A stretch of DNA of 64,000 nt. Source: Stappia sp. 28M-7. Lineage in GTDB: Bacteria; Pseudomonadota; Alphaproteobacteria; Rhizobiales; Stappiaceae. The stretch is taken from positions 4,650,001 through 4,714,000 of the forward strand of contig NZ_JACMIA010000001.1 of assembly GCF_014252955.1 (NCBI RefSeq). Reading direction: 5' to 3'. Position numbers and translations under genes: made by a program. Shown in pieces: positions 29,824-46,214 of this stretch (its first letter is position 1; each line of letters opens with the position of its first letter). The notes beneath the pieces were generated by a model that was not told where the DNA came from, searched no databases, and saw only the letters and a program-made list of their open reading frames with translations.

Positions 29824-30651
29824 TCATGCGGCAACGCCGCGCAGCGTACGCTCGCGCTGAATGATTTCCGAGGCCAGACGTAGATAGGCCTGGCTGCCGG
29901 AGCATTTCAGATCGTAGAGCAGCGCCGGCTTGCCGTAGGACGGCGCCTCGGACACCCGCACATTGCGCGGGATGATCGTGTCGTAGACCGCATCGCCCAT
30001 GGTCTCGCGCACATCGGCGACCACCTGGGCGGAAAGGTTGTTGCGGCTGTCATACATGGTCAGGACGATGCCGTGGATCGACAGTTCCGGGTTCAGCGCC
30101 GCCTTCACCTGCTCCACCGTGCTGAGCAGCTGGCTGAGACCCTCCAGCGCGAAGAACTCGCATTGCAGCGGCACCAGGATCGAGTGGCTCGCAGACAGCG
30201 CGTTGATGGTCAGAAGGTTGAGCGAGGGCGGGCAGTCGATCAGCACATAGGTGAAATCCGCAGGCGCGGCCTGGCGCCCCTGCCCTGCCAGCTCTGAGAT
30301 CGCCTTGCGCAGCCGGTGCGCCCGGTCGGAGCGGCTGGCGATCTCCAGCTCGACGCCGAGCAGGTCCATCGTCGACGGGGCGACCCACAGACGCGGCACC
30401 GCTGTGTCCTGGATCGTTTCGGCCAGCGAACAATCACCGATCAGCACGTCATAGGTGGAAAGATCGCGGTTGCGCCGGTCGATGCCGAGGCCGGTCGAGG
30501 CGTTGCCCTGGGGATCGAGATCGATCACCAGCACCCGCTCGCCGATGGCCGCAAGCGCCGTTCCCAGATTGATGGCCGTTGTCGTCTTGCCGACGCCGCC
30601 CTTCTGGTTGGCAAGCGCGAGGACGCGTGGAGACTGAGGAAGCATGCTCAT
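29824..30651 (-). CDS. parA: Chromosome partitioning ATPase ParA (Soj)
   Basis: 275 residues. Deviant Walker A NQKGGVGKTTTAINLG, the switch I region and Walker B LIDCPPSLNLLTINAL identify the ParA/MinD ATPase fold. Together with ParB it segregates the origin region. The ATG overlaps the rsmG stop (4 bp), and parB follows after 46 bp, so these genes are one operon as usual in alphaproteobacteria. Confidence 0.96.
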   Translation of the reverse strand: MSMLPQSPRVLALANQKGGVGKTTTAINLGTALAAIGERVLVIDLDPQGNASTGLGIDRRNRDLSTYDVLIGDCSLAETIQDTAVPRLWVAPSTMDLLGVELEIASRSDRAHRLRKAISELAGQGRQAAPADFTYVLIDCPPSLNLLTINALSASHSILVPLQCEFFALEGLSQLLSTVEQVKAALNPELSIHGIVLTMYDSRNNLSAQVVADVRETMGDAVYDTIIPRNVRVSEAPSYGKPALLYDLKCSGSQAYLRLASEIIQRERTLRGVAA

Positions 30652-31327
30652 CCGGTCTGGCCTTTCCCTGTCGCGCCGCGCGGCCTTAGCCCCGAGATCA
30701 TGAGGAGCCGGCTGTCGGGATCGATGAGGCTCTCCCTTTCTACCAGATCGAACTCCCAAGCGTGAGCGGCACGCGCGACCTCGTCGCGGAAATTTTTTCC
30801 TTTGTGGAAAATCGCAGGCGCGCCGTGATTCTGGAAGGGCTCCGTATAGGCCAGCAGCTCGGAAAGATCGGCCAACGCCCGCGCCGATACCGCGTCGATC
30901 TCGCCCGCAAGCTCTCCCGACACGTCCTCGATCCGCGAGGCGTGCACCGTCGCCGGGCAGCCGGTCTCGCGGATCACCGTGCGCAGGAACGCGGCCTTGC
31001 GGCTGTTGCTCTCGATCAGGTGGACATGCGCCCCGGGCAGGCGCTCCATCTGCACCATCGCCGTTACCAGCCCGGGAAAGCCGGCGCCGCTGCCCAGATC
31101 CGCCCAACGCGCTGCGTCGGGCGCCATCGCCACCACCTGCAGGCTGTCGGCCACATGCCGGCGCCAGGCCTCCGGCAGGGTCGAGGGCGCCACCAGGTTC
31201 TGCGCCTTCTGCCAGTGCAGGAGCAAATTCACGTAAGTGGTCAAGCGCTCCACTGTTTCACGTGAAACTTCGAAAATTCCGTGAAGCACTTCCGGGCCGT
31301 CCTCGACGGCAAGCCGCGCCGGCCGGC

Positions 31328-33469: not shown

Positions 33470-33485
33470 TGTTTCACGTGAAACG
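33470..33485. promoter_or_regulatory. parS site 2, between mnmG and mnmE
   Basis: TGTTTCACGTGAAACG in the non-coding gap, 6 bp before the end of mnmE. It matches the alphaproteobacterial parS palindrome. Confidence 0.9.
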
Positions 33486-37083: not shown

Positions 37084-37683
37084 TCATATGCCCGCCTGCA
37101 TTTCCCGCCACCGCTCCGCCTTCAGGCGATAAAGCACATGGCGCATCAGCGGGTGCCCGATGGGAAGGAGCGGGTGATCGAAGTCGCCATGCTCGTCCCG
37201 CTGCATGCCGAGACGGTCCATCACGCGCCTTGAAGGAGAATTCGTCACCGTGGTGAAGGAGACGATCTCTTCAAGGCCCAGAGTTTCGAAACCGAATCGA
37301 AGCCAGGCACGGGCCGCCTCGCTCGCATAGCCCATGCCCCATGCCGACCGGGCCAATCGCCAGCCGACCTCGACGCACGGCGCAAAGGGCACCGCGTAGC
37401 GTGGCCGGCTGAGCCCGACGAAGCCGATGAAAGCGCCGCTCCGCCTGACAACCACCGGCTGGAAGCAGAACCCGTCCTCGCGGCTTCGCTGGCGCGCAGT
37501 CTCGATCAAGGCGTCGCTTTCCTGCCGATCGAGCACGGAGGGAAAATAGCGCATCACCTCCGGATCGGCGGTCATGGCTGCAAAGGGCTCCCGGTCTTCG
37601 TCGGTCCAGGGCCGCAGCAGCAATCTCTCCGTCTCGATCACCAGGCTGTCGTCGCCCGGACGCAAGCGTGTGAAGTTCGTCAT
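37084..37683 (-). CDS. GNAT family N-acetyltransferase (RimJ/RimL-like)
   Basis: 199 residues. The N-terminal ETERLLLRPWTDEDREPFAAM and the CoA-binding WGMGYASEAARAWLRFG are typical of RimJ/RimL-type acetyltransferases, with EIVSFTTVTNSPSRRVMDRLGM as the conserved C-terminal region. The acceptor amine is unknown. Convergent with the DUF255 gene and separated by 16 bp. Start set at MTNFTRL; parS 4 lies just upstream. Confidence 0.87.
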   Translation of the reverse strand: MTNFTRLRPGDDSLVIETERLLLRPWTDEDREPFAAMTADPEVMRYFPSVLDRQESDALIETARQRSREDGFCFQPVVVRRSGAFIGFVGLSRPRYAVPFAPCVEVGWRLARSAWGMGYASEAARAWLRFGFETLGLEEIVSFTTVTNSPSRRVMDRLGMQRDEHGDFDHPLLPIGHPLMRHVLYRLKAERWREMQAGI

Positions 37684-37704
37684 CGTTCCATCTCCGAATC
37701 GACC

Positions 37705-37720
37705 TGATTCACGTGAAACA
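37705..37720. promoter_or_regulatory. parS site 4
   Basis: TGATTCACGTGAAACA between the GNAT gene and rho, 21 bp upstream of the GNAT start. Right arm matches consensus; left arm has one change. Confidence 0.8.
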
Positions 37721-37740
37721 TGCGGGTCTTGAAAAGCAAC

Positions 37741-37770
37741 ACCCGCGGAAGCCATTCGGCATCCGCGGGT
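37741..37770 (-). terminator. Hairpin after rho, next to a parS site
   Basis: ACCCGCGGA (37741-37749) pairs with TCCGCGGGT (37762-37770); GCC/GGC extends the stem inside. It is 52 bp past the rho stop and on the minus strand is followed by GTTGCTTTTC, so a rho terminator is likely. Confidence 0.7.
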
Positions 37771-39906: not shown

Positions 39907-40959
39907 TCAGGACGCTTCGAGAGGATCGGGAGCCTGACGCACGCGTTCGATCATGCGCGCGACGTTCTCCGGATCCGCGTCCGGTGTCACTCCATGCCCC
40001 AGATTGAAGACGAGCGGACCCTGTCCAAGTGTCGCAAGCACCTGGTCGACGCCCTCGTCCAGCGCCCGTCCGCCGGCCACGAGCCGCATCGGGTCGAGAT
40101 TTCCCTGCACCGGAACCAGCTTCTGGATCTCGCGGGCAAGCCCGCCCGGCACGGTCCAGTCGAGGCCGACCGCATCGACGCCCGTTCCCGCGATGTAATC
40201 CGCCAGCCGCGAGCTTGAGGCTTTCGGAAAGCCGATGATGCGCGCGCCCGGCACGGCCGCGCGAACGCCGTCGACGATTGCCCGCGTCGGCGCGATCGAC
40301 CAGCGGCGGAAACCCTCGTCATCCAAGACGCCCGCCCAGGTGTCGAAGATCTGCACCGCGTCGGCGCCGGCCTTCAACTGCCGCACCAGATAATCGATGG
40401 AGGCGGTGACCAGCTGGTCGATGAAGGCCTGCATCAGCTCAGGATCGCGATAGGCGCCGATCCTGGCGGCCGTTTGCTCCTGGGTGGTGTGACCGGCCAC
40501 CGAATAGCAGGCGACCGTCCAGGGGGCTCCGCAGAAGCCCAGAAGCGTCACCTCGTCCGGGAGTTCCCGGCGCAGGCGCGCCACGATCTCGATGACGGGG
40601 TCGAGATGCCCGACAGCGCGCCTCTGATCGAGATTGCCGACGAGCTTGTCGCTGAGCGGTTCCAGCACAGGTCCGCGCCCTTCCTCGAAGCGAACGGGAT
40701 ATCCGAGCGCATCGGGAACCACGAAAATATCCGAGAAGAGAATCGATGCGTCGAAGCCGTAGCGCCGGATGGGCTGCAAAGTGACTTCCGTTGCAAGCTC
40801 TACGTCGTAACAAAATTCAAGAAAGTTAACTCTTTTTGAACGGGTGGCACGGTACTCGGGAAGATACCGGCCGGCCTGTCTCATCATCCAGATCGGAGGC
40901 GGCCAGAGCCTTTCGCCGGCCAGCACCTGCATGATCCGTCGCGACGCCGTCTGAGACAC
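39907..40959 (-). CDS. hemE: Uroporphyrinogen III decarboxylase
   Basis: 350 residues, usual length. The catalytic-site motifs are WMMRQAGRYLPEYR near the N-terminus, ILFSDIFVVPDALG, GFCGAPWTVACY and the Tyr/His-rich IFDTWAG, with NLGHGVTPDADPENV at the end. The GTG at 40959 is chosen because aaaggggg lies 5-10 bp before it; a longer frame extends through a terminator-like hairpin and is unlikely. It decarboxylates uroporphyrinogen to coproporphyrinogen. hemE next to the origin is an established alphaproteobacterial feature. Confidence 0.95.
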   Translation of the reverse strand: MSQTASRRIMQVLAGERLWPPPIWMMRQAGRYLPEYRATRSKRVNFLEFCYDVELATEVTLQPIRRYGFDASILFSDIFVVPDALGYPVRFEEGRGPVLEPLSDKLVGNLDQRRAVGHLDPVIEIVARLRRELPDEVTLLGFCGAPWTVACYSVAGHTTQEQTAARIGAYRDPELMQAFIDQLVTASIDYLVRQLKAGADAVQIFDTWAGVLDDEGFRRWSIAPTRAIVDGVRAAVPGARIIGFPKASSSRLADYIAGTGVDAVGLDWTVPGGLAREIQKLVPVQGNLDPMRLVAGGRALDEGVDQVLATLGQGPLVFNLGHGVTPDADPENVARMIERVRQAPDPLEAS

Positions 40960-40981
40960 GAGACCCCCTTTAAAAAAGAAA

Positions 40982-41003
40982 AGAATCCTTGAAAGAGGAT
41001 TCT
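40982..41003. terminator. Terminator-like hairpin in the hemE leader
   Basis: 8-bp stem AGAATCCT/AGGATTCT with a 6-nt loop. On the minus strand it is followed by TTTTCTTTTTT and then the hemE ribosome site; on the + strand by GTTGTTTTTG. It can terminate in both directions and contains two GANTC sites. Confidence 0.65.
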
Positions 41004-41165
41004 GTTGTTTTTGTTTGGCACTGGACAACCGGGATTATCGGTTGTCGACACGGCTCCACATGACCTGTTCGCTCACTGCCTGTCGAGGGGTTTCGGGCAT
41101 AAGCCCTTTTACCCATGATGGTGATAACCCGGATTTCGCTTTCAAATCAGACGACTGAAGCTTTG

Positions 41166-41180
41166 TTAACCATCTGTTAA
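41166..41180. promoter_or_regulatory. Predicted CtrA-binding site
   Basis: TTAA-CCATCTG-TTAA, exactly the CtrA consensus TTAA-N7-TTAA. The heptamer GTTAACC is repeated at an 11-bp spacing (41165 and 41176). Confidence 0.65.
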
Positions 41181-41387
41181 CCTTTAAGGCACGGTCGAAC
41201 AATCTGGGGACGGGCGAAGAACAATCCGGTTTTCCCCGTTATCGGCGATCCTTCCGTCTCCGGCTCTTGCCCGCCTGTGCAGTGTTGATTGTTTTCGCGC
41301 TTCGGGCATGGTTTTGCGGGTCCGGCCTCGAAAGGGCCTGTTTGACCACACTAACCAGCACAAACGCCGCGGGCAGGGGATAACAGC

Positions 41388-42239
41388 TTGGGTAAGACTC
41401 GTAACTTCTTCCACCTGCACATGGTTTCGGACTCCACCGGTGAAACTTTGATGACGGTGGCACGCGCCGCGACGGCCCAGTACGAGGACGTGCAGGCGAT
41501 CGAGCATGTCTATCCGCTGGTGCGTTCGACGCGGCAGCTCGACCATGCGCTCGACGAGATCGAGCATGCGCCGGGCATCGTCCTCTACACGCTGGTCGAC
41601 CCGGAGCTGGCCGGCCGGCTGGAGCAGGCGGCGCGGGCTGCCGGCGTTCCTTGCGTCAACATCCTCTCGCCGGTCTTCGCGGTCTTCCAGTCCTATCTCA
41701 ATGTCCGCCTGACCGGCCGTATCGGTGGCCAGCACGCGCTCGATGCCGACTACTTCCATCGCATCGAGGCGCTCAATTTCACCATGCTGCATGACGATGG
41801 GCAGATCCCGGACAATCTCGACGAGGCGGATGTGGTGCTTCTGGGCGTCAGCCGCACCTCGAAAACGCCGACCTGCATCTACCTGGCCAATCGCGGCATC
41901 AAGGCGGCGAACATTCCCATCGTTCCGGACATCCCCCTGCCCCGCCAACTCGGCGAGCTGCGCCGGGCGATGGTGGTTGCCGTGGTCGCCTCGGTGGAGC
42001 GCATCCAGCAGGTGCGGCAGAACCGCATTCTCACGCTGAATGCGGGCGGCTTCGAGAACGAGACCTATGTCGACCGCCGGGTGATCGCCCGCGAGATCGC
42101 GGTAACACGCAAGATCTGCGCCGAGCACGGCTGGCCCCTGATCGATGTCACCCGCCGCTCCATCGAGGAAACCGCCGCGGAAATCATGAGCTTGTACCGG
42201 GCTCACAAGAGCACTCTGGCAAACGGCGGCGTGGCCTGA
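41388..42239 (+). CDS. ppsR: Pyruvate, phosphate/water dikinase regulatory protein (DUF299 kinase-phosphotransferase)
   Basis: 283 residues. Starts FFHLHMVSDSTGETLMTVARAA, the DUF299 signature, and holds the GVSRTSKTPTCIYLANRG P-loop-like nucleotide site and EIAVTRKICAEHGWPLIDVTRRSIEETAA. The family phosphorylates and dephosphorylates PPDK or PEP synthase with ADP/phosphate. The start is TTG with aggggat 5-10 bp upstream. It begins a + strand group of maf, aroE and coaE; its homologue RP001 is the gene next to the origin in Rickettsia. Confidence 0.92.
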   Translation: MGKTRNFFHLHMVSDSTGETLMTVARAATAQYEDVQAIEHVYPLVRSTRQLDHALDEIEHAPGIVLYTLVDPELAGRLEQAARAAGVPCVNILSPVFAVFQSYLNVRLTGRIGGQHALDADYFHRIEALNFTMLHDDGQIPDNLDEADVVLLGVSRTSKTPTCIYLANRGIKAANIPIVPDIPLPRQLGELRRAMVVAVVASVERIQQVRQNRILTLNAGGFENETYVDRRVIAREIAVTRKICAEHGWPLIDVTRRSIEETAAEIMSLYRAHKSTLANGGVA

Positions 42240-45227: not shown

Positions 45228-46214
45228 TCACAGCATGGACGGCAGGACGCGATCCGGCGGACGGTGGCCGTCCATGAAGGTCTTGATGTTGATGATGACC
45301 TTCTCGCCCATGTCGACGCGGCCCTCGACCGTCGCCGATCCCATATGCGGCAGCAGCACCACCTTGTTGGAGGCGACCAGCTTCGGGTTAACCGCGGGCT
45401 CGTGCTCGAACACGTCGAGACCGGCACCGGCGAGCTGGCCGGCATCGAGTTGACGGATGAGGGCGGCCTCGTCGATCACCTCGCCGCGCGCGGTGTTGAC
45501 GATATAGGCTTCCGGCTTCATCAGCTTCAGCCTGCGGGCCGACAGCAGGTGATAGGTCGCCGGGGTATGCGGGCAGTGGATGGACACGACGTCCATGCGC
45601 GCCAGCATCTGGTCGAGGCTTTCCCAGTAGGTCGCCTCGAGCGACTCCTCCACCGCTTCGGAGACCCTCCGGCGGTTGTGGTAGTGGATCGACATGCCGA
45701 AGGCCTTGGCGCGCCGGGCCACGGCCTGGCCGATGCGGCCCATGCCGATGATGCCGAGTCGCTTGCCCCAGATCCGCCGGCCGAGCATCCAGGTCGGCGA
45801 CCAGCCGCTCCACTCGCCATGCTCCAGCACCTTGATGCCTTCGGCGATGCGGCGCGGCACGCCGAGCATCAGCGCCATGGTCATGTCGGCCGTGTCCTCG
45901 GTCAGGACGCCCGGCGTGTTGGTGACCGTGATGCCGCGATTGTTGGCGGTGATGACGTCGATATTGTCGACGCCATTGCCGAAATTGGCGATCAGCTTGA
46001 GATTGGGGCCGGCCTGGGACAGGACGGCGGAGTCGATGCGGTCGGTGACCGTCGGCACCACCACGTCGGCGGTCTTCACCGCCTCGACCAGCTCGGCCTG
46101 GCTCAGCGGCCTGTCGGCTTCGTTGAGGCGCGTCTCGAACAGCTCGCGCATCCGCGTCTCGACGACGTCGGGCAGTTTGCGTGTCACGACGACCAGTGGC
46201 TTCTTCCTGGGCAT
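45228..46214 (-). CDS. D-isomer-specific 2-hydroxyacid dehydrogenase
   Basis: 328 residues. The NAD motif GIIGMGRIGQAVARRAKAFG, the substrate arginine region with NTARGEVIDEAALIRQL and LDVFEHEP, and the catalytic His in LPHMGSATVEGR define the group that includes glyoxylate/hydroxypyruvate reductases. The specific acid is not deducible; glyoxylate reductase-like activity is plausible. It is divergent from the SH3-domain gene across about 260 bp with nothing notable in them. Confidence 0.9.
   Translation of the reverse strand: MPRKKPLVVVTRKLPDVVETRMRELFETRLNEADRPLSQAELVEAVKTADVVVPTVTDRIDSAVLSQAGPNLKLIANFGNGVDNIDVITANNRGITVTNTPGVLTEDTADMTMALMLGVPRRIAEGIKVLEHGEWSGWSPTWMLGRRIWGKRLGIIGMGRIGQAVARRAKAFGMSIHYHNRRRVSEAVEESLEATYWESLDQMLARMDVVSIHCPHTPATYHLLSARRLKLMKPEAYIVNTARGEVIDEAALIRQLDAGQLAGAGLDVFEHEPAVNPKLVASNKVVLLPHMGSATVEGRVDMGEKVIINIKTFMDGHRPPDRVLPSML

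Follow-up and report, generated by a model that had tools for sequence, protein, structure and literature searches.

A hemE-ppsR intergenic gap in Stappia as probable chromosomal origin, and a central CtrA motif that recurs across the order

Introduction

Where does replication of the chromosome of the marine bacterium Stappia sp. 28M-7 begin, and could CtrA act there directly? The window analysed here is a 64,000-nt stretch (C1:4650001-4714000, contig NZ_JACMIA010000001.1 of assembly GCF_014252955.1) from a 5.13-Mb genome of 11 contigs, and the element in question is the gap between the divergent genes hemE and ppsR at 40960-41387. A preliminary description of this DNA had proposed the gap as the likely chromosomal origin, and our analysis leaves us almost certain that it is oriC. 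Its location and weak DnaA boxes are of a known kind, that of the Caulobacter crescentus origin (Cori), and the identity of oriC was expected; the weightier result is the CtrA motif TTAA-N7-TTAA, which lies at the centre of the gap and is found in many relatives across the order.

Results and discussion

Conservation, parS-like sites and skew point to the gap as oriC

The gap (40960-41387) comprises 428 bp, more than the 300 bp expected of an alphaproteobacterial origin between hemE and COG1806, and its GC content of 0.52, compared with 0.67 in the window, sets its A+T content above the surroundings. Both flanking genes matched their profiles, and their coordinates and divergent orientation were as first described: hemE, encoding uroporphyrinogen decarboxylase (39910-40959, minus strand; TIGR01464, 370.7 bits vs cut-off 302.95), and ppsR of the COG1806/DUF299 type (41388-42239, plus strand, TTG start at 41388; NF003742, 329.6 bits vs cut-off 225). 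We searched 87 genomes of the family, 86 of which had ppsR, and used 86 gaps, including those of G003 and G038 (stops in ppsR) and G062 (contig end). They were sorted into seven groups: g1 (n = 14, Stappia), g2 (n = 3), g3 (n = 3, including S. albiluteola, S. sediminis and Hongsoonwoonella), g4 (n = 5), g5 (n = 1), g6 (n = 16, Pseudovibrio-like, including Pseudovibrio axinellae) and g7 (n = 44, at a guess Roseibium-like). Alignment with relatives, proposed earlier as a check, showed the gap kept in all 86, at a length of 417-443 bp.

The whole genome was searched for the parS pattern with at most one mismatch, and the backward pattern served as control. Only three matches were found, at C1:4681254, 4683470 and 4687705, all to the left of the gap at distances of 9.7, 7.5 and 3.2 kb (31254-31269, TGTTTCACGTGAAACT; 33470-33485, TGTTTCACGTGAAACG; 37705-37720, TGATTCACGTGAAACA); the backward control had none in the genome. 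In all ten relatives searched, parS-like sites likewise cluster no more than about 12 kb from the respective gap; three of these genomes (G015, G016 and G044) also have isolated one-mismatch matches elsewhere, and backward matches number 0-2 per genome. The cluster adjoins an open reading frame (ORF) on the minus strand (29824-31107) with homology to a ParA-like ATPase from residue 160 (TIGR03453, 98.1 bits, under the cut-off of 348.45). Another ORF (37084-37755), which overlaps the parS-like site at 37705, weakly matched an N-acetyltransferase (TlmB, 34.9 bits vs cut-off 625).

Skew was computed from sampled 10-kb bins of the chromosome, plus a contiguous stretch of 174 kb. On the sampled contig GC skew was negative in 35 of 35 bins between 2.3 and 4.69 Mb and positive in 29 of 46 between 0 and 2.3 Mb. 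The best single keto-skew break in the contiguous stretch fell at 4,686,001 (5-95% range 4,681,001-4,696,001; 0 of 300 permutations as good), about 5 kb from the gap at 4,690,960. The single-contig congener G075, whose gap is at 2.81 Mb, has the same skew layout: of the 12 stretches between 0.4 Mb and the gap, 11 had negative keto skew, the three stretches past the gap were near zero, and all five of those that wrap from 3.1 to 0.1 Mb were positive. The keto-skew break and the conservation in 86 of 86 family gaps together support the gap as the chromosomal origin.

Other features of the skew speak against this assignment. The GC-skew break alone is weak (10 of 300 permutations as good; 5-95% range 4.61-4.715 Mb). 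The skew check called for earlier, run on the sampled chromosome and the contiguous stretch, favours the gap by its keto break and places the origin poorly by GC skew alone. Both cumulative minima of the contiguous stretch fall to the right of the gap: GC skew reaches its lowest value at 4.731 Mb and keto skew at 4.726 Mb, where it is only slightly under its value at 4.693 Mb. The five bins between 4.69 Mb and the end of the contig all still had negative GC skew, and two of them had positive keto skew. If the origin lay elsewhere, for example at dnaA (C1:281 kb) or between the gap and the end of the contig, and the gap were only an ancestral landmark, the minima and the negative GC skew would be accounted for; the keto changepoint near the gap and the lack of any parS-like site elsewhere in the genome make this very improbable. 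The dnaA locus itself was rejected as origin: the sampled stretches there had no lasting skew switch, keto skew wavering round zero, and the 3.5-kb locus held no 8/9 DnaA box. A second short match to a DnaA domain (34.4 bits; G000:C2:18747-19049, L003) probably belongs to a different AAA+ protein.

An exact CtrA consensus marks the centre of the gap

The one perfect CtrA consensus that had been noticed in the gap was confirmed (TTAACCATCTGTTAA, 41166-41180). It is the sole exact TTAA-N7-TTAA in the window (0.01 expected), and its longer form, TTAACCATNNNTTAACC, has one mismatch-free occurrence in the 5.1-Mb genome. TTAA-N7-TTAA occurs 23 times genome-wide compared with three times for TTAA-N8-TTAA, the backward AATT-N-AATT controls giving 12 and 17. 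CtrA is encoded in the genome (NF045991, the CtrA equivalog model; 426.3 bits vs cut-off 350).

Within the family, the central motif is exact in all 26 gaps of the first five groups (14/14 in g1, 3/3 in g2, 3/3 in g3, 5/5 in g4 and 1/1 in g5). In g7 it is exact in six of 44 gaps and has one mismatch in the other 38, against about 1.3 of 44 in shuffled g7 gaps; six g7 gaps carry an exact copy near position 320. Thus every one of the 70 family gaps outside g6 has the motif with no more than one mismatch. The spacer is specific: N7 was found in 38 of 86 gaps, the other spacers from N3 to N14 in 0-12, and shuffled gaps gave a mean of 1.22 (maximum 4 of 100 shuffles). Family loci outside the gaps had no TTAA-N7-TTAA in 170,578 bp. 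In g6 the central motif is absent from 16 of 16 gaps, the best match having 3-4 mismatches. The motif is therefore not essential to origin function, a point against the explanation favoured here. By analogy with Caulobacter, CtrA probably binds the central site; that this binding also controls initiation is a more tentative proposal.

The motif recurs in other families of the order and is rarer beyond it

For the order, 166 of 199 genomes were matched, seven of them in the window's family. We examined 63 non-family loci, 23 returned automatically and 40 hand-picked across families before any sequence was viewed; three were dropped because hemE did not lie beside ppsR, which left 60 gaps from 39 families. 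TTAA-N7-TTAA was found in 25 of the 60 gaps and in 15 of the 39 families, all outside the window's family. Other spacers from N3 to N14 occurred in 0-5 gaps, shuffles gave a mean of 0.73 (maximum 4 of 100), and outside the gaps these loci held a single match in 122,899 bp. Seventeen of 28 sites, in 11 families, lay in the middle 0.3-0.6 of the gap (Kolmogorov-Smirnov test against uniform, p 0.02).

For the class, 170 of 241 genomes were matched and 66 loci were tried (26 automatic, with three same-order ones excluded, and 40 hand-picked); hemE was not found in seven, and 59 gaps from 47 families outside the order were used. Nine of these 59 contained the motif (other spacers 0-3; shuffles mean 1.05, maximum 5), which is therefore rarer there than in the order. 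A separate set based on PpsR comprised 60 loci, of which 47 had a hemE-ppsR gap (48 with the window). Among its 33 named non-Stappiaceae gaps, many of them from metagenome-assembled genomes labelled Rhizobiaceae, Xanthobacteraceae or Bradyrhizobiaceae, the motif was found in four (L039, L049, L055 and L071; shuffles mean 0.68, maximum 3), a low count that indicates a patchy distribution. These four matches, only one above the highest shuffle, and the AT-rich gaps of the class set, in which single matches can arise by chance, would suit recognition of the site by a factor other than CtrA, or chance in AT-rich DNA. We hold this to be improbable in view of the N7 specificity in the order set and the near-absence of the motif from the same loci outside the gaps.

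A further alternative accepts the gap as the origin and lets TTAA-N7-TTAA regulate the promoter of hemE, ppsR or a small RNA, as with ccnA in Cori, and not initiation. Two observations agree with it. First, a promoter-like block, TGTTGAT-about 16-GGGCAT (41283-41311), lies 5' of ppsR; it is among the best-conserved parts of the gap across the 86 genomes and could be a ppsR promoter or a protein site. Second, motifs in the order set were no nearer to 8/9 DnaA boxes than random (median 183 vs 125 bp), and only three of 25 lay within 40 bp of such a box, where 5.5 were expected. The latter result also runs counter to the explanation that we favour: it disfavours simple overlap as a general mechanism, and closeness of CtrA and DnaA sites as a general rule was rejected. 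Regulation of a promoter is nonetheless rather unlikely, as about 205 bp separate the motif from either start codon, its placement is central in 17 of 28 order-set sites, and a scan of 40900-41450 found no sigma-70-like promoter, other promoter types being outside its coverage.

Sinorhizobium meliloti and Brucella abortus belong to the same order as Stappia. Unlike the Stappia gap, the S. meliloti origin is described as lacking both CtrA motifs and CtrA binding (PMC4433202), and B. abortus CtrA reportedly did not bind at the origin (PMC2877005). According to a 2015 review (PMC4468827), CtrA sites have not been seen in origins beyond Caulobacter and possibly Rickettsia. Predictions of such sites outside Caulobacter predate that review: for the Rickettsia/Wolbachia-group origins, which belong to a different order and have hemE on one side, DnaA, CtrA and IHF sites were predicted in most cases in 2007, with COG1253 and not ppsR opposite hemE in Wolbachia, Ehrlichia and Anaplasma (PMC1914354). 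In 2020, ChIP-seq showed CtrA binding adjacent to the origin of Hyphomonas neptunium (PMC7200025), a species placed in the Caulobacterales (PMC8116508). No paper turned up by searches of the open-licence literature described CtrA motifs in the origins of Hyphomicrobiales.

We tentatively propose that direct CtrA control of the origin through one central site is widespread and perhaps ancestral in the Hyphomicrobiales, that it may have been overlooked as S. meliloti and B. abortus lack it, and that the boxes of most Stappia genomes may have decayed below 8/9, shifting the balance from DnaA toward CtrA; the odds are somewhat against the proposal as a whole. Such a reading contradicts the printed view that CtrA sites in origins hardly occur outside Caulobacter and arose independently. 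If CtrA binds, many Hyphomicrobiales would couple the output of the cell-cycle phosphorelay directly to initiation, and the family would offer a natural series (exact, one mismatch, lost in g6) for testing the effect of this coupling.

The DnaA boxes of the window look like weakened forms of conserved sites

DnaA boxes were scored as 9-mers against TTATCCACA. The gap contains four 7/9 matches, at 41042 and 41342 on the plus strand and at 41119 and 41375 on the minus strand; at least four such matches occurred in 1.4% of 1000 gap shuffles. There is no 8/9 or 9/9 box, and the earlier remark that no perfect box exists is correct. The three 7/9 matches first listed are real as well, the full number being four, of which one proved to be something else. 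Six alignment columns have at most two mismatches to TTATCCACA in at least 40 of the 86 gaps (range 47-79), whereas none of 300 letter-permuted 9-mers reached six such columns and the best had two. The best-kept column, at 41375-41383 (minus strand; 79 of 86 gaps), abuts the ppsR start codon and is the complement of its ribosome-binding site, AGGGGATAA; it was rejected as a DnaA box, and five of the six columns thus remain as DnaA sites.

These five are here called B1 to B5. B1 (41020-41028, minus strand) reads TTGTCCAGT in the window, a 6/9 match, and TAATCCACT/G in sister genera, with 51 of 86 gaps at no more than two mismatches and none of these in g1. B2 (41042-41050, plus strand; 64 gaps) is a 7/9 match, TTGTCGACA, which appears as TTGTCCACA in g4 and g5 and most commonly as CTATCCACA in g7. 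B3 (41119-41127, minus strand; 47 gaps) likewise scores 7/9 with TTATCACCA and reads TTATCGACT in g7. Right of the centre, B4 (41194-41202, minus strand; 49 gaps) is a 4/9 match in the window (TTGTTCGAC; TTATCCACT in g4 and g5), and B5 (41230-41238, plus strand; 52 gaps) is a 6/9 match, TTTTCCCCG, with TGATCCACA, TAATCCACA or GAATCCACA in g4 and g7. The remaining 7/9 match, TTGACCACA (41342-41350, plus strand), shows little conservation, with 13 of 86 gaps matching at its column.

Boxes of 8/9 or better were found in 3/14 gaps of g1, 3/3 of g2, 1/3 of g3, 5/5 of g4, 1/1 of g5, 1/16 of g6 and 38/44 of g7. Sites in g4, g5 and g7 are nearer the consensus (TTGTCCACA, TTATCCACT, TGATCCACA and TAATCCACA), compared with 4/9 to 7/9 in the window. 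Because DnaA keeps the ordinary RDHTTV signature and sister genera are near-consensus at the same columns, the window boxes look degenerate or weakened, and not like a new kind; of the "degenerate or non-canonical" boxes suggested earlier, the former description fits and the latter does not. At the level of overall alignment and signature, a changed DnaA specificity was rejected, since the protein aligns full-length with solved DnaA chains and retains RDHTTV. Boxes are weak in g6, where the CtrA site is missing, as well as in most Stappia, indicating that weak boxes and CtrA are not simply coupled. Weak DnaA boxes are known for Cori (PMC4468827).

The AT-rich stretch carries a GANTC inverted repeat

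A stretch at 40967-41018, which adjoins hemE and reaches 72% A+T over 50 bp, is the candidate DNA unwinding element. The 50 bp with the highest A+T content in the gap lie here, and a scan of the window in steps of 5 bp ranks the stretch in the top three for A+T. It encloses an inverted repeat (40982-41003; fold z -3.4) whose arms each contain one GANTC, the CcrM-type site (40983-40987 and 40998-41002). This AGAATCC/GGATTCT repeat, with a stem of at least 7 and GANTC in both arms, is present in 14 of 14 g1 gaps. Elsewhere, the best repeat has a GANTC on either side in 29 of 44 g7 gaps, mostly in the swapped form AGATTC/GAATCT, in none of the 28 gaps of g2-g6, and in three of 60 in the order set. 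At least two GANTC sites lie within 60 bp of hemE in 14/14 gaps of g1, 44/44 of g7, 5/5 of g4, 2/3 of g3, 1/16 of g6, 0/3 of g2 and 0/1 of g5.

The GANTC sites pointed out earlier in the gap are there, two in number (40983 and 40998), and represent no excess, as shuffles lead one to expect 1.59. Across the window GANTC is depleted, with 65 sites compared with 309 expected from dinucleotide shuffles. The genome encodes a CcrM-like methylase (NF050803, 638.3 bits, under the cut-off of 830). By analogy, the pair could act through CcrM methylation, which we consider unlikely on balance. The repeat scored as terminator-like on both strands in a simple scan (two found vs 1.1 in shuffles), and may therefore terminate transcription, whether or not it also acts as a methylation mark. 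A second inverted repeat with GACAACCG-type arms (41024-41046; z -3.1) overlaps B1 and B2.

A Cori-like arrangement suggests how the origin may work

Taking the observed position, site array and conservation together, we consider it very probable that the gap is an origin with a DnaA array, a central CtrA motif and a GANTC pair. Following mostly the example of Cori, DnaA would bind the five weak boxes cooperatively (B1-B3 left and B4-B5 right of the centre) and, once bound, would melt the AT-rich stretch adjoining hemE. Phosphorylated CtrA on the central TTAA-N7-TTAA would hold the origin off in non-replicating cells, and CcrM methylation of the GANTC pair would tell fired from unfired origins. 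Two findings sit less easily with this explanation: seven sampled places in 854 kb have at least four 7/9 boxes per 428 bp, so that the box count alone would not find the origin, although the CtrA motif accompanies them in the gap alone; and the strict IHF consensus does not occur in the gap.

Cori has five CtrA sites and the Stappia gap one exact site. The Cori G-box, TGATCCACA, does not occur in the Stappia gap and is found at B5 in three g4 and five g7 relatives. A T-to-G change is described for the G-box (PMC4468827). The GANTC inverted repeat in the AT-rich stretch may be a further difference of the Stappia gap from Cori. The likeness consists in the hemE/COG1806 flanks, weak DnaA boxes, TTAA-N7-TTAA, an AT-rich stretch and a linked par locus (PMC1914354, PMC4285127, PMC8959179 and PMC4468827). 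In addition, the Cori IHF site TAACGCTCTGTT, which shares bases with one of the CtrA sites of Cori (PMC4285127), agrees with the central site TAACCATCTGTT in 10 of 12 letters. The gap is therefore Cori-like by anatomy and, with its one CtrA site and no G-box, not a copy.

Neighbouring genes and minor observations

The genes nearest the gap are directed away from it on both sides, as first described: hemE, hemJ, rho, mnmE, mnmG and rsmG on the left, and maf, aroE, coaE and dnaQ on the right. This pattern ends beyond dnaQ, where a dehydrogenase-like ORF (45231-46214) is directed toward the gap. A scan of the plasmid collection for a similar gap gave no match, and an Rfam search of 40500-41900 returned only two chance microRNA matches, far under the gathering threshold. 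The PpsR of the window shares 99% identity with its counterpart in Stappia indica SBBC 49. Two genomes carry the label Stappia indica (L024 and L028); their PpsR proteins have 99% and 85% identity to that of the window, from which it follows that one of the labels is probably wrong. At G003:C24:102322-103129 ppsR is apparently broken into two pieces with stops, and the adjoining gap retains the CtrA motif. Finally, 20 kb at G000:C1:4320001-4340000 (L022) have 41% GC, whereas the other sampled stretches have 63-69%, and probably represent a mobile island.
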